A stretch of 42,437 nucleotides of DNA from positions 1-42,437 of the forward strand of contig JALCRV010000016.1 of NCBI GenBank assembly GCA_022652945.1, written 5' to 3'. The stretch comes from Bacilli bacterium. GTDB taxonomy: Bacteria > Bacillota_I > Bacilli_A > RFN20 > CAG-288. The notes beneath the pieces are model-generated. The model made no database searches and was not told the origin of the DNA. It worked only from the letters and a program-made list of their open reading frames with translations. Made by a program: the position numbers and the translations under genes. This document shows, piece by piece, positions 11,318 through 19,600 of this stretch (within the stretch, counting starts at the first letter, position 1; every line of letters begins with the position of its first letter).

Positions 11318-11356
11318 AAAAGCTCCAACAACCTCATATTGTTGTTGGAGTTTTTT
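11318..11356. terminator. bidirectional terminator between convergent genes
   Basis: A 10-bp perfect stem CTCCAACAAC/GTTGTTGGAG (11323-11332, 11341-11350) has TTTTTTG after it on the plus strand and TTTTTTATAG after it on the minus strand. It serves the membrane-protein gene and the sugar operon. Confidence 0.9.
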
Positions 11357-11384: not shown

Positions 11385-12923
11385 TTATTCCTTAATAGCC
11401 AAGACAGCTATCCCCTCTTTAGAAAGGAGCGGAACGACAACATCTCCGCTGACATGTGTCAGGACTGTCTTCCTATTCATCTGCCAGACATCGATGACAT
11501 CAACGGTATATTTCTTGTCCTTCGGTAAAGACATCTTCGTCTGGAAGGGGCAATGAATGGAGAAGTAAGTAAGATAGGCTTCATCTTTATAGCTGGAACT
11601 GAAGACAGCATCTTTAATCATCATCAGTTGCAGATCGACAGGATTCACTTTCCTAAGTCTTAAAGCGAATGTACGATATTCGGCCGGAACGGTCTCAACC
11701 ATCTTATTGAACTCTTCATCGCTCATCGTGGCTATTTTACCAATATATCCAGCAGACTGAAGATTAGGAGAAAGAGGACCCGGGATGCTCTCGATGACTT
11801 TTCTTAAAAACTTAATCCGTTTCCAAGACTGCCCTTTTAAAGTCCCGCCTGCCGCCCACCAAAGAATCTCATCAGGTGAATTAAAAGTCTCACCGTGAGT
11901 AGCGTAACCACCGCTAGCAAATGCCTGCCAGAAGCGATTAGTTTCTTCAAAGGCAGAAATATTTCCCCAGTTGCTTTCGATGTTTCCTTCATAACACATC
12001 TCATCATAAATAACCGGCTTATGGTACTTGGCAAGCAGTTCAGGTATCTGAGCTGTTGTCGCTGACTGAATCGAACAGTGAGTAATATGAGGTTTCGAAT
12101 GATCATAAGCCATAAAGCACTGATGAATGCCCATCAAATGTTCAAAGGGTTCATGTTCAAAGATATAATCTTGGATCTTTTCCCAGTCATCATATTGCAT
12201 CGATGGTATTAAGTCGTATTCATTAGCTAGGCTCCACCAGATATGAGGCCAGCTGCCTAATCTTCTTAACAGATAATCCAAATAAGCAAAATTATCAGGC
12301 ATGGAGAATTTGGAAAAGCCCCAATTGTCATAAGGATGGAAAAGAATCAAATCGATCTCAATCCCGAGTTTGATAATACGTTTTAAGATATCTTCAAAAC
12401 GATGCCAGAAATCAGTATCCGGAGAAGAAAGGTCCCAGGTACCATTCACCTTTTTCTGGAACGGATAGAAAGGTGGTTCCCGATGATTATATTCGTAATA
12501 TTTAGGAAATACGCACATTCTGACTTTATTAAAGGAAGCGCGTTTTAAGGAGGATAGAGTTTGATTAACTACTTCATCGGACTGATGAGCCAAGGCGTAG
12601 ACTGTAGTTCCAACAGGAATAAATTGGGTCTTATCAGAAAAGACAAAATGAGTCTCTTCAGCTTTTACCGGCCCATGATCTTTCCCTTCCTTAACTTGGA
12701 ATTGGCCTTTTTTAGAGAAAAGACCGGAGATCTTATAAGAGCAGAGCCCTTTCTCTAAAGGAAGATAACGGATTTTATAAACTCCTTTACCATCGTAGAA
12801 GCCTTCAACTAAGGTAGTCTTCCCGTTAAGCAAGAACTCTCCTTTTAAATCGATCTTCGCGTAGTTCTCTTTCATCTCCGTCCCCGAGAAGACGAACTCC
12901 ATCATTTCATATTGCTTTGCCAT
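11385..12923 (-). CDS. cytoplasmic glycoside hydrolase, DUF5060 / apiosidase-like barrel / DUF5605
   Basis: The 512-residue protein has an N-terminal beta domain of DUF5060 type (about 1-85) and a central TIM barrel of the DUF4038 or apiosidase-like class (about 95-410). A C-terminal beta domain of DUF5605 type follows (about 430-512). Clan-A style catalytic positions are visible: WWSLANEYD (acid/base Glu after Asn) and VIYDEMCYEG (nucleophile Glu). There is no signal peptide, so it acts inside the cell. AAAGGAG precedes the ATG. It starts 18 nt after the kinase stop (12942) and is the last gene of the isomerase-transketolase-kinase operon. This points to release of the sugar that the operon then metabolises. 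Related barrels include GH140 apiosidase, but the substrate is inferred. Confidence 0.8.
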   Translation of the reverse strand: MAKQYEMMEFVFSGTEMKENYAKIDLKGEFLLNGKTTLVEGFYDGKGVYKIRYLPLEKGLCSYKISGLFSKKGQFQVKEGKDHGPVKAEETHFVFSDKTQFIPVGTTVYALAHQSDEVVNQTLSSLKRASFNKVRMCVFPKYYEYNHREPPFYPFQKKVNGTWDLSSPDTDFWHRFEDILKRIIKLGIEIDLILFHPYDNWGFSKFSMPDNFAYLDYLLRRLGSWPHIWWSLANEYDLIPSMQYDDWEKIQDYIFEHEPFEHLMGIHQCFMAYDHSKPHITHCSIQSATTAQIPELLAKYHKPVIYDEMCYEGNIESNWGNISAFEETNRFWQAFASGGYATHGETFNSPDEILWWAAGGTLKGQSWKRIKFLRKVIESIPGPLSPNLQSAGYIGKIATMSDEEFNKMVETVPAEYRTFALRLRKVNPVDLQLMMIKDAVFSSSYKDEAYLTYFSIHCPFQTKMSLPKDKKYTVDVIDVWQMNRKTVLTHVSGDVVVPLLSKEGIAVLAIKE

Positions 12924-12941
12924 AATCCAGTGGCTCCTTTC

Positions 12942-14410
12942 TTAGTTTGCTTGTGCGGCTCTTACCGCTTTAGACCAACCTGATAATTTGTCTTCTCTGC
13001 TCTTATTATCCATCTTAGGCACGTATTCTTCAAAAGAAGTATTCTCCTTATCGATGTTCAAAAGCCCGAGTTTTTTAAAGCCATTAAGCCTACACCTTTA
13101 CCAGTCATTTCTTTCTCTTGAGGCACGATGATGCGAAGAGAAGAAAGATCTGACTGCAGTTGCATTAAGTATCGATTAGAACTGGGTCCGCCATCGACAC
13201 CCAAGGCAGTTATTTTCTTCCCGAGGTCTTTTTCTATCGAACTAATCACATCCTGAATCTGATAGGCGATGGAATCTAAGGCCGCCTTACAGATTTCTTC
13301 TACCCCCGTATTTTCTTTTAAGCCGATTAACAAAGCGGAAGCGGAAGAATTATTATAGGGAGCATTTAAGCCATTAAAGGCGGGGACTAGATAGACTTTG
13401 CTGTCCTGCTGGGCTTTTAAGGCTAGGCTTTCTGCTTCCTTAGGTTCCTTAATAAGATGGAGTCTATCTTTCAGCCACGTGATAACTCCACCGGTGCAAT
13501 TGATATTTCCTTCTAAGACATAGCAGACTTTGCCATTTTCTGCAAAGCCTATCGAGGAATTTAAACCGAAAGAGGAGAGAAGAGGACTATTTCCAATATT
13601 GACCATTACCGATGAACCAGTACCGTAAGTCGCCTTCCCCTCACCGACTTGATAGCAACCGTGTCCATAAAAAGCAGCGTGGGAGTCTCCCATTACTGAA
13701 AGTATCGGCACTTCATGGTTTAAAGCACCATCTAAATCAGTCATCCCGAAATCTCCATCGGAGAAATCAATCTCCGGAAGATATGATGACTTAAGCCCAA
13801 AATAAGAACAAAGTTGTTCATCGTACTTTAAGGTCTTTAAATCCATCAAAGAAGTCCGGGAAGCGTTGGTAACATCAGTTTTAAAAACTTTGCCTTTAGT
13901 TAAACGGCAGATTAAATAAGAATCAATCGTGCCTAAATGGGCTTTATTTTCTTCAAGAAGTCTTTCGTTTTCTTTGTTAGCCTGCTTAAGCCAAGCATAT
14001 TTGGAAGCTGGGTAAAAAGGAGAGAGCCAAAGTCCGGTTTTAAGATGGATTTCCTCCTGATAAGCGGTCAGTTGATCAACGAGCGGCTTGCTGATTGTAT
14101 TCTTCCAGACGACAGCTTCTGTAATAGGTAATCCTTCAGAAGAAAAAAGGCAACTAGTCTCCCGCTGATTTGCAATGGCAATCCCTTTAACTAACTTACT
14201 ATCGATTTTTCCTTTGAAGATTACCTCTTTTGCGACTTTTAGGAGATTAGCATAAATCTCATTTAAATCATGAAAAAGATTGCCGTTTGAATCATATATT
14301 TGCTTATGGCTTAAAAAAGCCGAGGCGATAATCTTTCCTTCTTCATTCAAAAGGAAGCCTTTTGTTCCCTGAGTGGATTGATCAAAGCTAAGAATATATG
14401 ATGCTGACAT
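12942..14410 (-). CDS. FGGY-family carbohydrate kinase, frameshifted near the C-terminus
   Basis: A glycerol-kinase-like FGGY kinase that would phosphorylate the ketose made by the operon's isomerase. It starts MSASYILSFDQSTQGTK, with the ATP-binding D-x-S-T motif. It contains IANQRETSCLF as in glycerol kinase, and the C-terminal signature LGVDGGPSSNRYLMQLQSDL. The first frame stops at 13058 (TGA). The -1 frame continues to TAA at 12942 with the expected family tail (EEYVPKMDNKSREDKLSGWSKAV). The switch lies at AAAAAAC (13070-13076), read as A AAA AAC. One A lost from an A7 run, a sequencing indel, or programmed -1 slippage would each explain it. It starts 1 nt after the transketolase stop. 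Confidence 0.85.
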
Positions 14411-14411
14411 T

Positions 14412-15350
14412 TTAAAGCCCTTGGAAGAAAGCTTCAGCCTTCTTGGTGATGCCCTCAACATCTAAACCATAATACTTAAAGGCTTCTTGAGAAGTTCCGG
14501 CGACCACCGGAGCATCAGGTAAAGAAAGACGGAGGACCTTTTTAGGAGAAGAAGCGGAAAGGACTTGAGAAGCTAAAGCATTCAGGCCGCCGAAAGGAGC
14601 GTGCTCCTCTACGCTGATGACGCCTTTAACGCCATAAGCGTACTTAAGAAGACTCTTTTCATCGAAAGGCTTTAAGCAATACATATCCAGTAAACTAGCT
14701 GAAATCCCCTCTTTTCGAAGTAACTCAACAGCCTTTAAGCATGGATAAGTCATCTCTCCGCAGCTGACGATTAAAAGATCTCTTCCTTCTGACAGGACTT
14801 GAGCTTGATTAAATACGAAATCTGCATCATTTCCTGAATAAATATCCTCAACCGGGTTTCGGCCAACACGGATATAAGCAGGCTTTTTATCCTTTAAAAG
14901 AGACTGGATGATCCTTCCAGTTTGAATTCGGTCGGAAGGAAGATAAACTCTCATGTTCGGCAAGGCTGTCATACAAGCAATATCCTGTGAAGAATGGTGA
15001 GACATACCTAAGGAACCATAACTAACACCACCGGAAATACCGATAAGTTTCACATCGGTATCGGAATAACAAACATCAATTTTGCATTGCTCATAACTGC
15101 GGGTGGTGAGAAAACAAGCGGGGGAAGCTGCAAAAACCTTTTTACCCGCTTTTGCTAACCCAGCCGAAATGCTGACTAAGTCCTGCTCAGCAATCCCGAC
15201 TTCCACAAACTGAGAAGGAAAGGAATCAGCAAAAGGCGTTAAAGAAGCCGAACCACGCGAATCGGAGCAACAAACGATGAGGTACTTATCGCTCTTCGCA
15301 GCCTTTAAGAGTTCTTCACAGATGGCCTGCCTATTGGGTATATTGTTCAT
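14412..15350 (-). CDS. transketolase, C-terminal subunit
   Basis: The 312-residue protein is the pyrimidine-binding plus C-terminal half of a transketolase, made as a separate subunit. Family features include EVGIAEQDLVSISAGLAKAGKKVF (the conserved Glu that activates thiamine diphosphate), GISGGVSYGSLGMSHHSSQDIA and the lower-conserved C-terminal domain. It overlaps the N-terminal subunit gene by 4 nt (ATGA), which implies coupled translation and a two-subunit enzyme. In this operon it should act on a phosphorylated ketose, moving a two-carbon ketol unit onto an aldose phosphate in the cytoplasm. Two-subunit transketolases are also used for apulose 4-phosphate in known apiose pathways (AptA/AptB). 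Confidence 0.93.
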   Translation of the reverse strand: MNNIPNRQAICEELLKAAKSDKYLIVCCSDSRGSASLTPFADSFPSQFVEVGIAEQDLVSISAGLAKAGKKVFAASPACFLTTRSYEQCKIDVCYSDTDVKLIGISGGVSYGSLGMSHHSSQDIACMTALPNMRVYLPSDRIQTGRIIQSLLKDKKPAYIRVGRNPVEDIYSGNDADFVFNQAQVLSEGRDLLIVSCGEMTYPCLKAVELLRKEGISASLLDMYCLKPFDEKSLLKYAYGVKGVISVEEHAPFGGLNALASQVLSASSPKKVLRLSLPDAPVVAGTSQEAFKYYGLDVEGITKKAEAFFQGL

Positions 15351-16171
15351 AACTCACGCTCCTTAATCGCAAAATCTCCAGCGATTCTTGAATATTCTTC
15401 TTCGCTAGGTAAGTGATGATGCCAAGATGCCTTATTTTCCATCACATTAGAGCCTTTCCCTTTAATAGTCTCGCAAACGAGGCAAGTCGGGCCGGCTTTA
15501 TAATCTTCAGCTAACTTAAAAGCAGAGATCAATTGATTCACATCATTTCCGTCTTCGACTTTAATAACGTTCCAACCGAAGCCACGAATGCGGGAAGCTA
15601 AATCAGCCTTACCCATCACCTGAGAGGTCGGGCCGGAGATTTGAAGTTTATTTTCATCGATCACCGCGCATAAGTTATTAAGACTATATTGATTCCCAGC
15701 CATCAAAGCTTCCCAGATCGAACCTTCCGCCATTTCCCCATCACCCATCACGACATAAACACGATAAGATTTCTTATCCATTTTTCCGGCTAAAGCCAAG
15801 CCTACACCAACCGGCAAGCCATGCCCTAAAGAGCCGGAGTTCATTTCAATTCCTAGTAGTTTGTTATTCGGATGGCCGATATAAGGTGATAAAGGTTTTC
15901 CGTATTTCTCCTTGATATCATTTAAATCTAAGAAACCTTTCTTCGCTAAAACCGCATAATAAGCCTCCATCGCATGACCCTTAGAAAGAATGAAGCGATC
16001 ATGATCAGAATCTTTAATATTGGTTAAGTTAACATTCATCACTTGAAAATAAAGGACGGTCAAAATCTCCATGACTGACATATCTCCTCCGATATGCCCA
16101 CCTTTACCAGCCATGATGATATCTAAGGCATCTTTACGTAGCTCATAAGCTAATTTAGAAAGATTTTCCAT
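15347..16171 (-). CDS. transketolase, N-terminal subunit
   Basis: The 274-residue thiamine-diphosphate-binding half of transketolase. It contains KGGHIGGDMS, SKGHAMEAYYA, GSLGHGLPVGVGLALAGK and the pyrophosphate/Mg motif G143-D-G-E ending about 30 residues later in DENKLQ. The last positions of a full-length transketolase are in the adjacent gene. It sits 13 nt after the isomerase stop and overlaps the C-terminal subunit by 4 nt. No key residue appears to be missing. Confidence 0.94.
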   Translation of the reverse strand: MENLSKLAYELRKDALDIIMAGKGGHIGGDMSVMEILTVLYFQVMNVNLTNIKDSDHDRFILSKGHAMEAYYAVLAKKGFLDLNDIKEKYGKPLSPYIGHPNNKLLGIEMNSGSLGHGLPVGVGLALAGKMDKKSYRVYVVMGDGEMAEGSIWEALMAGNQYSLNNLCAVIDENKLQISGPTSQVMGKADLASRIRGFGWNVIKVEDGNDVNQLISAFKLAEDYKAGPTCLVCETIKGKGSNVMENKASWHHHLPSEEEYSRIAGDFAIKEREL

Positions 16172-16184
16172 GATGTTTCAGTGC

Positions 16185-17606
16185 CTATTTCACTTCTAAA
16201 TCCACATCTTCCCCACGAAGATAAGCCTTGACGTCTTCTTCAATCGGGTCATAAAGATCAGGCTTAATGCCTAAATATTTACAGGCCTCATATAACGCTG
16301 GAACCAACTCAAGATGGATTCCGACACAATGATGAATATAAGGTCCTTCGACAATCTTGGCTTCCAGTCTTTTAATATTCCTGACCTTAACCCAAAGATA
16401 AGTTCCCATGCCTTTAGGTCCGTCGATACCTAAAGCATTCCCTAAAAGTAAGGAGTATTCCCCGTGATCCCCATCAAAACGTGCTAATGTCACTTCTCCG
16501 TGTTTTGCTTCCGCCGTTAAGGAACCTTCATGAGTAAAGGCTAAAGGACAAGTAAGTGTCGGCTTCTCTTTAGCCACCGATAAAGGCCAGGGACCGCAGT
16601 GCTGTAAAAGTTCCCCATTCGGTTCATCGGGATGGCGGATGGTCCAATCCGCAAAAAAGCTTCTTTTCTCTCCTAAACCAGCTGCCTCGACTAATAAAGC
16701 GGTAATCGCCCCATGGATATCTGTTTCACAGACCATAGGAATCCCTTCTTCATTAAGTAAAGCATTAGCAGCGCACGGCATGATTCCGATTTCCGACTGC
16801 AGTTGATCCCAACACTGGATTGCTCCAGCCTGGCAGGCATACTTCTTAATCAGTTTTTCATAAGCTACTTTTAAGGCAGCGACATTAACAAGGTTTTCCG
16901 AACTGACATTGATGTTGAAATACTTCTTTAAATAATTAATGACAGGAGCGATTTCTTCTTTCGCCTCCTTAGCCTTTTTTACTTCATCGACTAGCTCACC
17001 CATCGGAATAGGGGAAATCTGAATATTGAATTTCTCCAGCAATTCCCCTTCGTTACACATAGTCGACATAAAATCATAAGGGCGCGTAGATATCTGCAGG
17101 ATGCGCATATTACGGAAAGCCTTAACGATTGAGCAGACTCTTAAAAAGTCCTTCAAGCCTCTTTCAAACATCGGATCAGAAAGACGGCAATTAGTCAAAT
17201 AAGTGAAAGGCACATTGAATCTTCTTAAGACTTTTCCAGTTGCGAATAACCCACATTGGGTATCTCTTAATCTTCGGCCGTCCTTTTCAGGTCTTTCATC
17301 TAAAGGACCCCAAAGCAGAACCGGCAGATCAAGTTCTTTCGCTAAAAGACCGCACTGATATTCAGTTCCGAAATTACAATGAGGCAAAAACAGACCATCG
17401 ATTTTTTCTCTTTTGAACTTTTCGGCGATCTTTTTACGGTCTTCATCGTTATAAAGCAGACCTTCTTGATTGATGTCAGTGATATCAACAAAATCAATTC
17501 CTAATTCCGTAAGTCTTTCCGCTGTCAGATTCCGGTATTTAAAAGCATCCGGAGCGGAAAAGATACTTCTTCTGGTCGGGGCGAAACCGATTTTTATCTT
17601 GGTCAT
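16185..17606 (-). CDS. FucI/AraA-like sugar isomerase
   Basis: The 473-residue protein belongs to the L-fucose/L-arabinose isomerase superfamily: two Rossmann-like N-terminal domains (KIKIGFAPT..., FLPHCNFGTEYQCG) and the C-terminal catalytic domain. The metal-binding signature is PMVCETDIHGAITALL, where Glu and Asp would hold Mn2+. It should interconvert an aldose and a ketose. It is the first gene of the operon and faces a divergent LacI regulator. FucI enzymes also accept D-arabinose, so D-ribulose is a possible product; a branched pentose such as apiose is an alternative. The ATG is preceded by a weak GACAGG site. Confidence 0.88.
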   Translation of the reverse strand: MTKIKIGFAPTRRSIFSAPDAFKYRNLTAERLTELGIDFVDITDINQEGLLYNDEDRKKIAEKFKREKIDGLFLPHCNFGTEYQCGLLAKELDLPVLLWGPLDERPEKDGRRLRDTQCGLFATGKVLRRFNVPFTYLTNCRLSDPMFERGLKDFLRVCSIVKAFRNMRILQISTRPYDFMSTMCNEGELLEKFNIQISPIPMGELVDEVKKAKEAKEEIAPVINYLKKYFNINVSSENLVNVAALKVAYEKLIKKYACQAGAIQCWDQLQSEIGIMPCAANALLNEEGIPMVCETDIHGAITALLVEAAGLGEKRSFFADWTIRHPDEPNGELLQHCGPWPLSVAKEKPTLTCPLAFTHEGSLTAEAKHGEVTLARFDGDHGEYSLLLGNALGIDGPKGMGTYLWVKVRNIKRLEAKIVEGPYIHHCVGIHLELVPALYEACKYLGIKPDLYDPIEEDVKAYLRGEDVDLEVK

Positions 17607-17677
17607 TTTTGTTGCCTGTCTTTCGTTAAATCTTTCTTTATCTTCATCATAAAGAAGGCGGCTCTAAATTAATTAAT

Positions 17678-17713
17678 AAATTAAGTTATCTTTACTTAAT
17701 TTTTAACTTAATT
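17678..17713. promoter_or_regulatory. operator-like inverted repeats in the isomerase/LacI divergent region
   Basis: A palindrome AAATTAAGT-N7-ACTTAATTT spans 17678-17702. A further copy of the half-site, TTAACTTAATT, follows at 17703-17713. The 12-bp sequence ATAACTTAATTT recurs at 17776-17787 in the opposite orientation to 17678-17689. These are candidate binding sites for the adjacent LacI-type regulator, although they lack the central CG of classic LacI operators. Confidence 0.45.
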
Positions 17714-17726
17714 AATGTAAAAATTC

Positions 17727-17755
17727 TTGAAAATGCCTTTTTTAAGGAACATAAT
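17727..17755 (+). promoter_or_regulatory. promoter of the LacI-family regulator (TTGAAA-17-CATAAT)
   Basis: A -35 TTGAAA (17727-17732) and a -10 CATAAT (17750-17755) are separated by 17 nt. The predicted start near 17762 leaves a leader of about 35 nt. That leader contains the repeat copy ATAACTTAATTT, which suits autoregulation. Confidence 0.6.
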
Positions 17756-17796
17756 TGAATTAAGGAAAGGTAAATATAACTTAATTTTTGAGCCTT

Positions 17797-18804
17797 ATGA
17801 ATATAAAAGCAAAGGAATTAGCTAAAAAGCTTCATCTCTCCGAGGCTGCCGTCTCAATGGCTTTAAATAATAAGCCTGGTGTTAGCCGAGAAACTAGGAA
17901 TCTCGTAATCAATCAAGCTAAAAAAGACGGGTATGATTTTTCCCGCATTCAAGATAAAAGCGAAAAAGCCGGAAGCATTTACTTTTTGATATATAAGAAA
18001 AGCGGAGCGGTCGTCGGAGATACCCCTTTCTTTTCAGAAGTCTCCGCCGGTTTAGCTATCGGATGTAAGAATGCCGGATATAAGATGAAGATTGTTTATA
18101 TTTACGAAGAGAACGGTGAAGTCGAAAAACAGATTGAGGACTTAGCGATTTCCGACTGCATTGGGGGCATCCTTTTAGCCACGGAGATGACTAAAGAAGA
18201 TCTTTATCATTTCCGAAATGTCACTTTTCCTCTCGTGCTTCTTGATGCCTATTTCAACACGGCGGAATATGATTCAGTCTTAATAAATAATTCCCAGGGG
18301 GCCTATCTAGCCACCTCTTATTTGATTCAGGCAACTGGAAAACAGCCGGGTTATTTAAAATCGGCTTATAAAATAGCGAATTTTGAAGAAAGATCCCATT
18401 CTTTCTTCACCGCTATCAGAGAACATTCCTTCCCGGCTTCTCAAAGCCAAGTCTGGTCTTTAACACCATCGATCGAAGGTGCTTACGACGATATGAAAAA
18501 ACTCCTGCAGTCAGGAGAAAAACCAGTCAGCTGTTATTTTGCGGATAACGATATGATTGCTTTAGGGGCGATGAAAGCCTTAAAAGAAGACGGCTATCGA
18601 ATCCCCGAGGATGTTCGAATCGTCGGCTTTGATAATATCTCCGCTTCTTCTTTAGTTGAGCCGCCTTTAACGACCATCGATGTACCTAAGCAATATATGG
18701 GAGAGCAAGCAGCTAAGAGACTGATCTCTATATTAAAAGAAGCAAATCCCCAGCATTTAAAGATTGAAGTGGCAGTTAGTCTGATAAAAAGAAAATCAGC
18801 GTAA
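17797..18804 (+). CDS. LacI-family transcriptional regulator
   Basis: The 335-residue regulator has an N-terminal helix-turn-helix (KAKELAKKLHLSEAAVSMALNNKPGVS) and a periplasmic-binding-protein-like sensor domain. It ends with the family pattern DVRIVGFDNISASSLVEPPLTTIDVP. I use the ATG at 17797; the TTG three codons earlier has no better ribosome site. It is divergent from the isomerase-transketolase-kinase-glycosidase operon and is its likely sugar-responsive repressor. No terminator is obvious between it and the convergent Fic remnant. Confidence 0.93.
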   Translation: MNIKAKELAKKLHLSEAAVSMALNNKPGVSRETRNLVINQAKKDGYDFSRIQDKSEKAGSIYFLIYKKSGAVVGDTPFFSEVSAGLAIGCKNAGYKMKIVYIYEENGEVEKQIEDLAISDCIGGILLATEMTKEDLYHFRNVTFPLVLLDAYFNTAEYDSVLINNSQGAYLATSYLIQATGKQPGYLKSAYKIANFEERSHSFFTAIREHSFPASQSQVWSLTPSIEGAYDDMKKLLQSGEKPVSCYFADNDMIALGAMKALKEDGYRIPEDVRIVGFDNISASSLVEPPLTTIDVPKQYMGEQAAKRLISILKEANPQHLKIEVAVSLIKRKSA

Positions 18805-18848: not shown

Positions 18849-19600
18849 TTAATTCGCTTTTTTCTTGTCTGTCTCTTTTTCTTTGTGCTCTATAACATGA
18901 TGATATCCGTAACGATACTTGCCGATTTCATACCCCCCGATACTGCCATATTTTCTTTTTGTGCTTTTCAATGATATATCAGATGCCTTTTCTAAAGTAT
19001 GAGTTGAAATAGCATCTCTTAAGATCATCTCTAAATATTGCTTTTTAGGGGCTTCATCCACAGAATAAAGAACTAGAGCATTGCGGAAATATTTGGCATT
19101 TTTAGCTAGGAATATTTCGTTTAATTCAATGCTTTCCTGCTTTAAAAGCAGGACCATAAATATGGTGCAAGCTCTTGTATTTCCCTCCCTAAAAGGATGG
19201 ATTTTCCACAGTGAAGACAAAAAAGAAGCCACTGTTTTGGAAAGTTCTTCACTTTTTTAATTTTTCCAATTTAAAAGGGTAAATTTTCTGCTCAAATTTT
19301 CAAGTCTTTCAATAATTTCTCGATGAGAAGAATAAACAACAGAAACCCCCCCAATATTGGTTCTTCCTTGAAAATGTCTATAGATCTGACTTGTCCTGCA
19401 AAAGGATATATTTCTCCAAAAATTCTTTTGTGTATCAGAAGAAGATCCATGCACGACTTTATTTCAATTGGATTCTGTAGTAAATCAGCTAATGCTAAAG
19501 AAGCTAAATTGTTTTCGTATTTATCGAGGTCATTTTGTTTCTTCAGCCCAGCGAGATTAATCAATATATTCGTATCGGGATAAACATAAGGATCATTCAT
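18849..19600 (-). pseudogene. Fic-family toxin, disrupted by a frameshift and a nonsense codon
   Basis: The N-terminal part, from MNDPYVYPDTN to KEEPILGG, is in one frame. After a run of seven Gs (plus-strand C7 at 19346-19352) the homology continues in another frame (GVSVVYSSHREIIERLENL). It meets an in-frame TAA at 19257-19259 and resumes in the same frame with the Fic motif HPFREGNTRA and a C-terminal tail. Fic proteins transfer AMP or other phospho-groups to target proteins. With a one-base deletion and a stop before the active site, no full toxin should be made unless both lesions are errors. The ATG overlaps the antitoxin stop by 8 nt, with AAAAGGAG inside the antitoxin gene. Confidence 0.88.

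Follow-up and report, generated by a model that had tools for sequence, protein, structure and literature searches.

Apiose, a branched sugar, occurs in the pectin rhamnogalacturonan II and in many plant glycosides of the diet, among them apiin. The closest described system to the operon considered here is D-apiose degradation I (MetaCyc PWY-8089), which uses ApsI, AplK, AptA, and AptB (Carter et al., as cited in PMC13001218). The AptA/AptB/AplK set of Escherichia coli comes from clusters whose carriers use D-apiose as sole carbon source (PMC13001218). Here, we describe an operon in a 42,437-nt contig of a Bacilli bacterium of the CAG-288 lineage (JALCRV010000016.1 of assembly GCA_022652945.1; this whole stretch is referred to as the window), in which an isomerase, a split transketolase, a GlpK-like kinase, and a PF13204 glycosidase form five minus-strand genes beside a divergent LacI gene. 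All of these genes lie where the initial annotation of the sequence had placed them, and profile searches with Pfam and NCBIfam are the source of all domain assignments. Like D-apiose degradation I, the operon combines an isomerase, a GlpK-type FGGY kinase, and a two-subunit transketolase, with kinase pocket and transketolase active-site residues in common, and many relatives of the operon share the DUF2291 ribose-type transporter. Unlike that system, it has an isomerase of a separate clade (about 25% identical to the enterobacterial one), a LacI regulator rather than an annotated "sugar-binding transcriptional regulator," and a linked PF13204 glycosidase without an adjoining transporter.

We consider it highly probable that the operon encodes the D-apiose isomerase-kinase-transketolase route in a Gram-positive form, running via apulose and apulose 4-phosphate, since this accounts for all of its parts. 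It very probably enables a gut-type bacterium to release a rare branched sugar from plant material and to catabolize it with a dedicated two-part transketolase. On genomic evidence alone, apiose is strongly favored over D-arabinose or L-fucose. The apiose role suggested in the initial annotation draws support from a transketolase that is sister to AptA/AptB, an AplK-type kinase pocket, and independent ties of glycosidase, transporter, and binding protein to apiose. From gene content, conservation, family placement, active-site residues, and genomic linkage, we propose every substrate, the order of steps, the location of the glycosidase, and the regulation as follows. A small apioside would enter the cell, where the glycosidase would free D-apiose. 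The isomerase, of the AraA/FucI superfamily, would convert D-apiose to D-apulose, and the GlpK-type kinase would phosphorylate this to apulose 4-phosphate. Glyceraldehyde 3-phosphate would then accept the two-carbon ketol unit of apulose 4-phosphate from the two-subunit transketolase; xylulose 5-phosphate and dihydroxyacetone phosphate would result. The LacI regulator would respond to the sugar.

Conservation and distribution of the operon

Genome contigs were scanned with the window isomerase alone, which gave 80 loci, nearly all from Lachnospiraceae or other Clostridia. Of these loci, fetched by isomerase similarity only, 72 contain the complete four-gene core, and in 55 the gene order is the same and uninterrupted; the association is therefore more than chance. 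The same core also occurs in Monoglobus pectinilyticus, in Listeria monocytogenes, and in two genomes from the class to which the window belongs. By gene order and product names, the Listeria operon would be lmo1030-1036 of strain EGD-e, a cluster that varies between Listeria lineages (PMC2996996) and for which no assigned function was found in the literature searched. In a search of 97 other related genomes, no isomerase exceeded 41% identity across most of its length, which makes the operon rare in the group of the window organism. In trees, the window sequences group with Lachnospiraceae operons, and transfer can reasonably be inferred; base composition does not speak for it, because the G+C content of the operon (0.418) equals that of its surroundings (0.424). 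At one further locus (L156, G074:C16, 7295-13261), a 41% identical isomerase stands with a PfkB-like kinase, a class II aldolase-like protein, and an FGGY kinase, without a transketolase; this cluster probably serves another pathway, with an isomerase of the same family.

What would be new is that the isomerase family is separate, that the glycosidase lies outside GH140, and that the Listeria cluster gains an assignment; the D-apiose transketolase route itself is known, and the Clostridia mentioned in Carter et al. (as cited in PMC13001218) may already include this operon. The operon suggests a way in which many gut Lachnospiraceae may use apiose. It also gives lmo1030-1036 a testable function and offers two families, an isomerase and a glycosidase, for direct assay.

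A dedicated transketolase related to AptA/AptB

The AptA-like subunit A (15347..16171, minus strand) is the ThDP-binding half (PF00456, Transketolase_N), and the AptB-like subunit B (14412..15350, minus strand) comprises the pyrimidine and C-terminal half (PF02779/PF02780, Transket_pyr/Transketolase_C). In a tree of concatenated subunits, the operon transketolases form one clade and the AptA/AptB enzymes of E. coli, Klebsiella, Rahnella, Roseateles, and Rhizobium another. Each has a support of 100, as does the node that unites the two as sisters; SqwGH, full-length Tkt, and other split transketolases all branch outside this node. The initial annotation had allowed that the subunits might group with ordinary pentose phosphate enzymes; the opposite was found, and the tree rules out a housekeeping transketolase, of which the window genome encodes a separate, full-length one. 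Active-site residues agree with this placement. At position 469 of E. coli TktA, leucine is present in 17/17 operon enzymes and 5/5 Apt-type enzymes, with aspartate in Tkt and asparagine in SqwGH, and a WHH motif is common to subunit A of the window and AptA. In TktA, Asp469 makes contact with the hydroxyl group adjacent to the carbonyl in an aldose acceptor, and its loss would fit a ketone product such as dihydroxyacetone phosphate. In the five loci without a transketolase beside the isomerase, an operon-type enzyme (50 to 70% identical to that of locus L074) was found elsewhere in the genome in every case. Genes named aptA/aptB in Apilactobacillus kunkeei (L142, 9001-10729) carry automatic names that are probably misnomers; the genes fall outside the Apt clade and in an unrelated cluster, so the names alone were not taken as evidence. 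A second, different split transketolase lies near the operon of another relative (L046, 17528-19500).

The transketolase also bears on whether the operon might instead serve sulfoquinovose or another sulfo-sugar. The sulfo-transketolase (sulfo-TK) pathway (SqvD, SqwGH, SqwI) likewise places an isomerase before a split transketolase, and the best named NCBIfam match of the window isomerase is SftI, albeit at 105 bits against a cutoff of 700. However, the window transketolase belongs to a clade separate from SqwGH and has Leu rather than Asn at position 469, a kinase is present, sulfonate enzymes are absent from the operon, and the window genome has a separate sulfoquinovose-type cluster. Transketolase tree and gene content together reject the route suggested by the SftI match, whose probability we regard as close to negligible. 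The separate cluster (L157, G000:C4:94000-108000) encodes a GH31 enzyme above the PRK10426 cutoff, a transaldolase, a sulfolactaldehyde-reductase-like enzyme, an SftI-like isomerase, and an MFS_2 transporter, and looks like a sulfo-transaldolase route. Two further loci (L149 and L151) hold an SftI-like isomerase, a split transketolase, an RpiB-like isomerase, and likely coenzyme A ligase subunits, as in a described sulfo-TK variant.

Kinase pocket and a frameshift near its 3' end

The proposed AplK-like apulose kinase (main frame, 13058..14410, minus strand) has FGGY_N and FGGY_C domains, as expected of the FGGY kinase first recognized here. Its best match is the glycerol kinase model TIGR01311 (434 bits; E. 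coli AplK scores 495, and the cutoff is 590.35). At the positions of GlpK Gln246 and Phe270, every aligned operon kinase and every AplK-type kinase has Ser/Ser. The Gln/Phe pair is kept in 5/5 glycerol kinases, including the window genome's own GlpK. The score below the cutoff and Ser/Ser in place of Gln/Phe rule out a plain glycerol kinase. This pocket is also relevant to an alternative in which the same sugar is processed in another order, the transketolase cleaving unphosphorylated apulose to xylulose 5-phosphate and dihydroxyacetone and the GlpK-type kinase then phosphorylating dihydroxyacetone. Glycerol kinases do use dihydroxyacetone, the kinase belongs to the GlpK family, and SqwGH is a split transketolase that acts on an unphosphorylated sugar; yet Gln246Ser and Phe270Ser, the same residues as in AplK, would make the glycerol pocket larger, and the transketolase is sister to AptA/AptB, not SqwGH, so we consider this order improbable and retain phosphorylation of apulose before its cleavage.

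The kinase has an early in-frame stop at 13058, which leaves the glycosidase 134 nt away. After TTTAAAAAAC (13065-13079), the -1 frame continues for about 40 homologue-like C-terminal residues (12942..13079, minus strand) to 12942, 18 nt before the glycosidase, and frame 2 of the kinase 3' end reads GLLNIDKENTSFEEYVPKMD...GWSKAV, resembling the C termini of homologues. The frameshift may stem from an indel or from misassembly; programmed slippage is less likely. The gap range of -4 to 18 nt first given for the operon holds for the first four genes, with 13 nt between isomerase and subunit A, -4 nt between the subunits, and +1 nt between subunit B and the kinase (ATG at 14410), but extends to the glycosidase only if the kinase is read through the frameshift.

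A separate isomerase family in the AraA/FucI superfamily

The proposed D-apiose isomerase (16185..17606, minus strand) is an aldose-ketose isomerase with a Pfam match (Fucose_iso_C) below the curated cutoff (19.4 versus 29.3 bits), and a sequence search of the PDB with it gave no useful match. Its structure model (mean pLDDT of 72, with the C-terminal part low) is closest to L-arabinose isomerases (E = 4e-21), followed by D-arabinose and L-fucose isomerases, and the FucI/AraA catalytic Glu and Asp plus His columns are preserved. By predicted fold and metal/catalytic residues, it belongs to the AraA/FucI superfamily; it differs from L-arabinose and L-fucose isomerases in its low identity to them (16 to 18%) and in its operon partners. 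The label "FucI-like" in the initial annotation was therefore right about the superfamily but loose, given the sub-cutoff Pfam match and a predicted fold nearest to L-arabinose isomerases. Orthologues are 74 to 82% identical in Lachnospiraceae, 75% in Monoglobus, and 68% in Listeria.

Clusters of Klebsiella and Rahnella with AptA/AptB, an AplK-type kinase, and a DUF2291 transporter also carry a FucI-family isomerase, which by its position is taken to be ApsI. The window isomerase is not its orthologue; the two share a superfamily and fall in separate clades. The suggestion that a different isomerase family serves the route thus stands as to family, at 25% identity, but not as to fold, and the enterobacterial clusters rule out a FucI-type fold as new to the apiose route. 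In Rhizobium (L140, 5154-10261), a TIM-barrel isomerase-like protein is encoded with an Apt-type transketolase, a GlpK-type kinase, and a triose-phosphate isomerase, and is a possible third isomerase type on the same route. Given this pairing with an Apt-type transketolase, the isomerase appears to be the replaceable step of the route.

Glycosidase and transporter links to apiose

The glycosidase (11385..12923, minus strand) is the only PF13204 gene of the window genome and combines DUF5060, PF13204 ("Apiosidase"), and DUF5605 (Pfam) with no evident signal peptide; we propose that it is an intracellular apiosidase. A PDB search with its sequence retrieved only 4n0r (BVU_0362 of Bacteroides vulgatus; full-length match, 36% identity), an entry whose title gives no assigned function, and not the GH140 apiosidases 5msy (BT1012) and 8t9w. 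Its model likewise matches 4n0r best (Z = 46.8) and resembles the GH140 apiosidases in overall fold (Z = 28.0 to 8t9w and 26.9 to BT1012), from which it differs by the additional DUF5060. Because the GH5 mannanase ManDH5 scores the same as these apiosidases (Z = 28.6), fold alone does not fix the substrate. The barrel enzyme is thus apiosidase-like, as first suggested, in its PF13204 domain but not GH140 by sequence. Glu235 and Glu308 align with the Asp/Glu of GH140-like operon proteins. Genomic context points to apiose more directly. Homologues (35% identity over 99%) lie inside rhizobial D-apionate lactonase clusters, which encode ApnL (NF049900, 1055.7 against a cutoff of 750), a Gfo/Idh oxidoreductase, and a DUF2291 transporter. 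The Listeria operon instead has a GH140-like glycosidase (8t9w, E = 2.5e-25; 5msy sequence, E = 6.7e-15). Across the 80 loci, 18 PF13204-type genes were observed against 0.39 expected, an approximately 45-fold enrichment that is conservative because the background of 21 genomes was partly chosen for carrying such genes.

Outside the core, these loci most often carry a ribose-type ABC transporter (ATPase in 37 loci, permease in 35, and binding protein in 30) and DUF2291 (30 loci). Exactly one DUF2291 gene is present in 13 of 20 genomes and none in 7, and 12 of these 13 single genes lie within the operon locus (matched by position because the tools number contigs differently). In one relative (L080), the binding protein matches 5ibq/4ry0 at 4e-104, with ribose-binding proteins far lower; that of the rhizobial ApnL clusters is nearly identical to 5ibq/4ry0, and that of the E. 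coli apiose cluster also matches these entries best. The ligand of 5ibq is probably apiose. PF13204 enrichment, DUF2291, and the binding protein together link the operon to genes for apiose uptake and release.

An alternative is that the sugar degraded is another aldose (D-arabinose, D-ribose, L-fucose, or a branched relative) and that the dedicated transketolase only adds flux. RbsD near 23 and a PfkB-type kinase near 21 of the relatives' operons fit such a role, as does an isomerase of the AraA/FucI superfamily. Against it, an ordinary transketolase, which the genome has, would be enough for D-ribulose 5-phosphate or xylulose 5-phosphate, and apiose is indicated by the PF13204 enrichment, the linkage to DUF2291, and the match of the binding protein. 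We therefore regard another aldose as very unlikely and favor D-apiose.

Several observations nevertheless weigh against the D-apiose route. The window isomerase is not sister to the enterobacterial one, the glycosidase falls outside GH140 by sequence, and the RbsD and PfkB-type kinase of some relatives would also suit a ribose-like sugar. The window genome lacks a DUF2291/5ibq-type binding protein (best match, 33 bits). In this genome, the kinase reading frame is broken by a shift close to the 3' end, and the enzyme may be damaged. True glycerol kinases branch within the Ser/Ser kinases in the kinase tree, so Ser/Ser supports function but defines no single clade; the kinase placement proposed in the initial annotation thus points to AplK through the Ser246/Ser270 pocket and not through a clade. 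A more far-reaching reading has, in our judgment, an even chance of being correct in full: that the operon isomerase is a second, separately derived D-apiose isomerase family in the AraA/FucI superfamily, that proteins with the DUF5060-PF13204-DUF5605 architecture make up a family of intracellular apiosidases, distinct from GH140 and using a Glu/Glu catalytic pair, and that this pathway variant is spread over gut Lachnospiraceae and Listeria.

Control region and adjoining features

The divergent regulator (17788..18804, plus strand; Peripla_BP/LacI domains) is of the LacI family, genes of which occur in 75 of the surveyed loci. Between it and the isomerase lies an A+T-rich control region (17607..17787) with imperfect inverted repeats (17667-17686/17694-17713) that form a putative operator. 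Sigma-70 promoter matches were no more frequent than expected by chance. Just after the glycosidase, an intrinsic-terminator-like hairpin is followed by a T-run (11323..11350, minus strand). A short open reading frame adjoining the operon (18849-19232) matches only the end of a Fic domain and is possibly a gene remnant.

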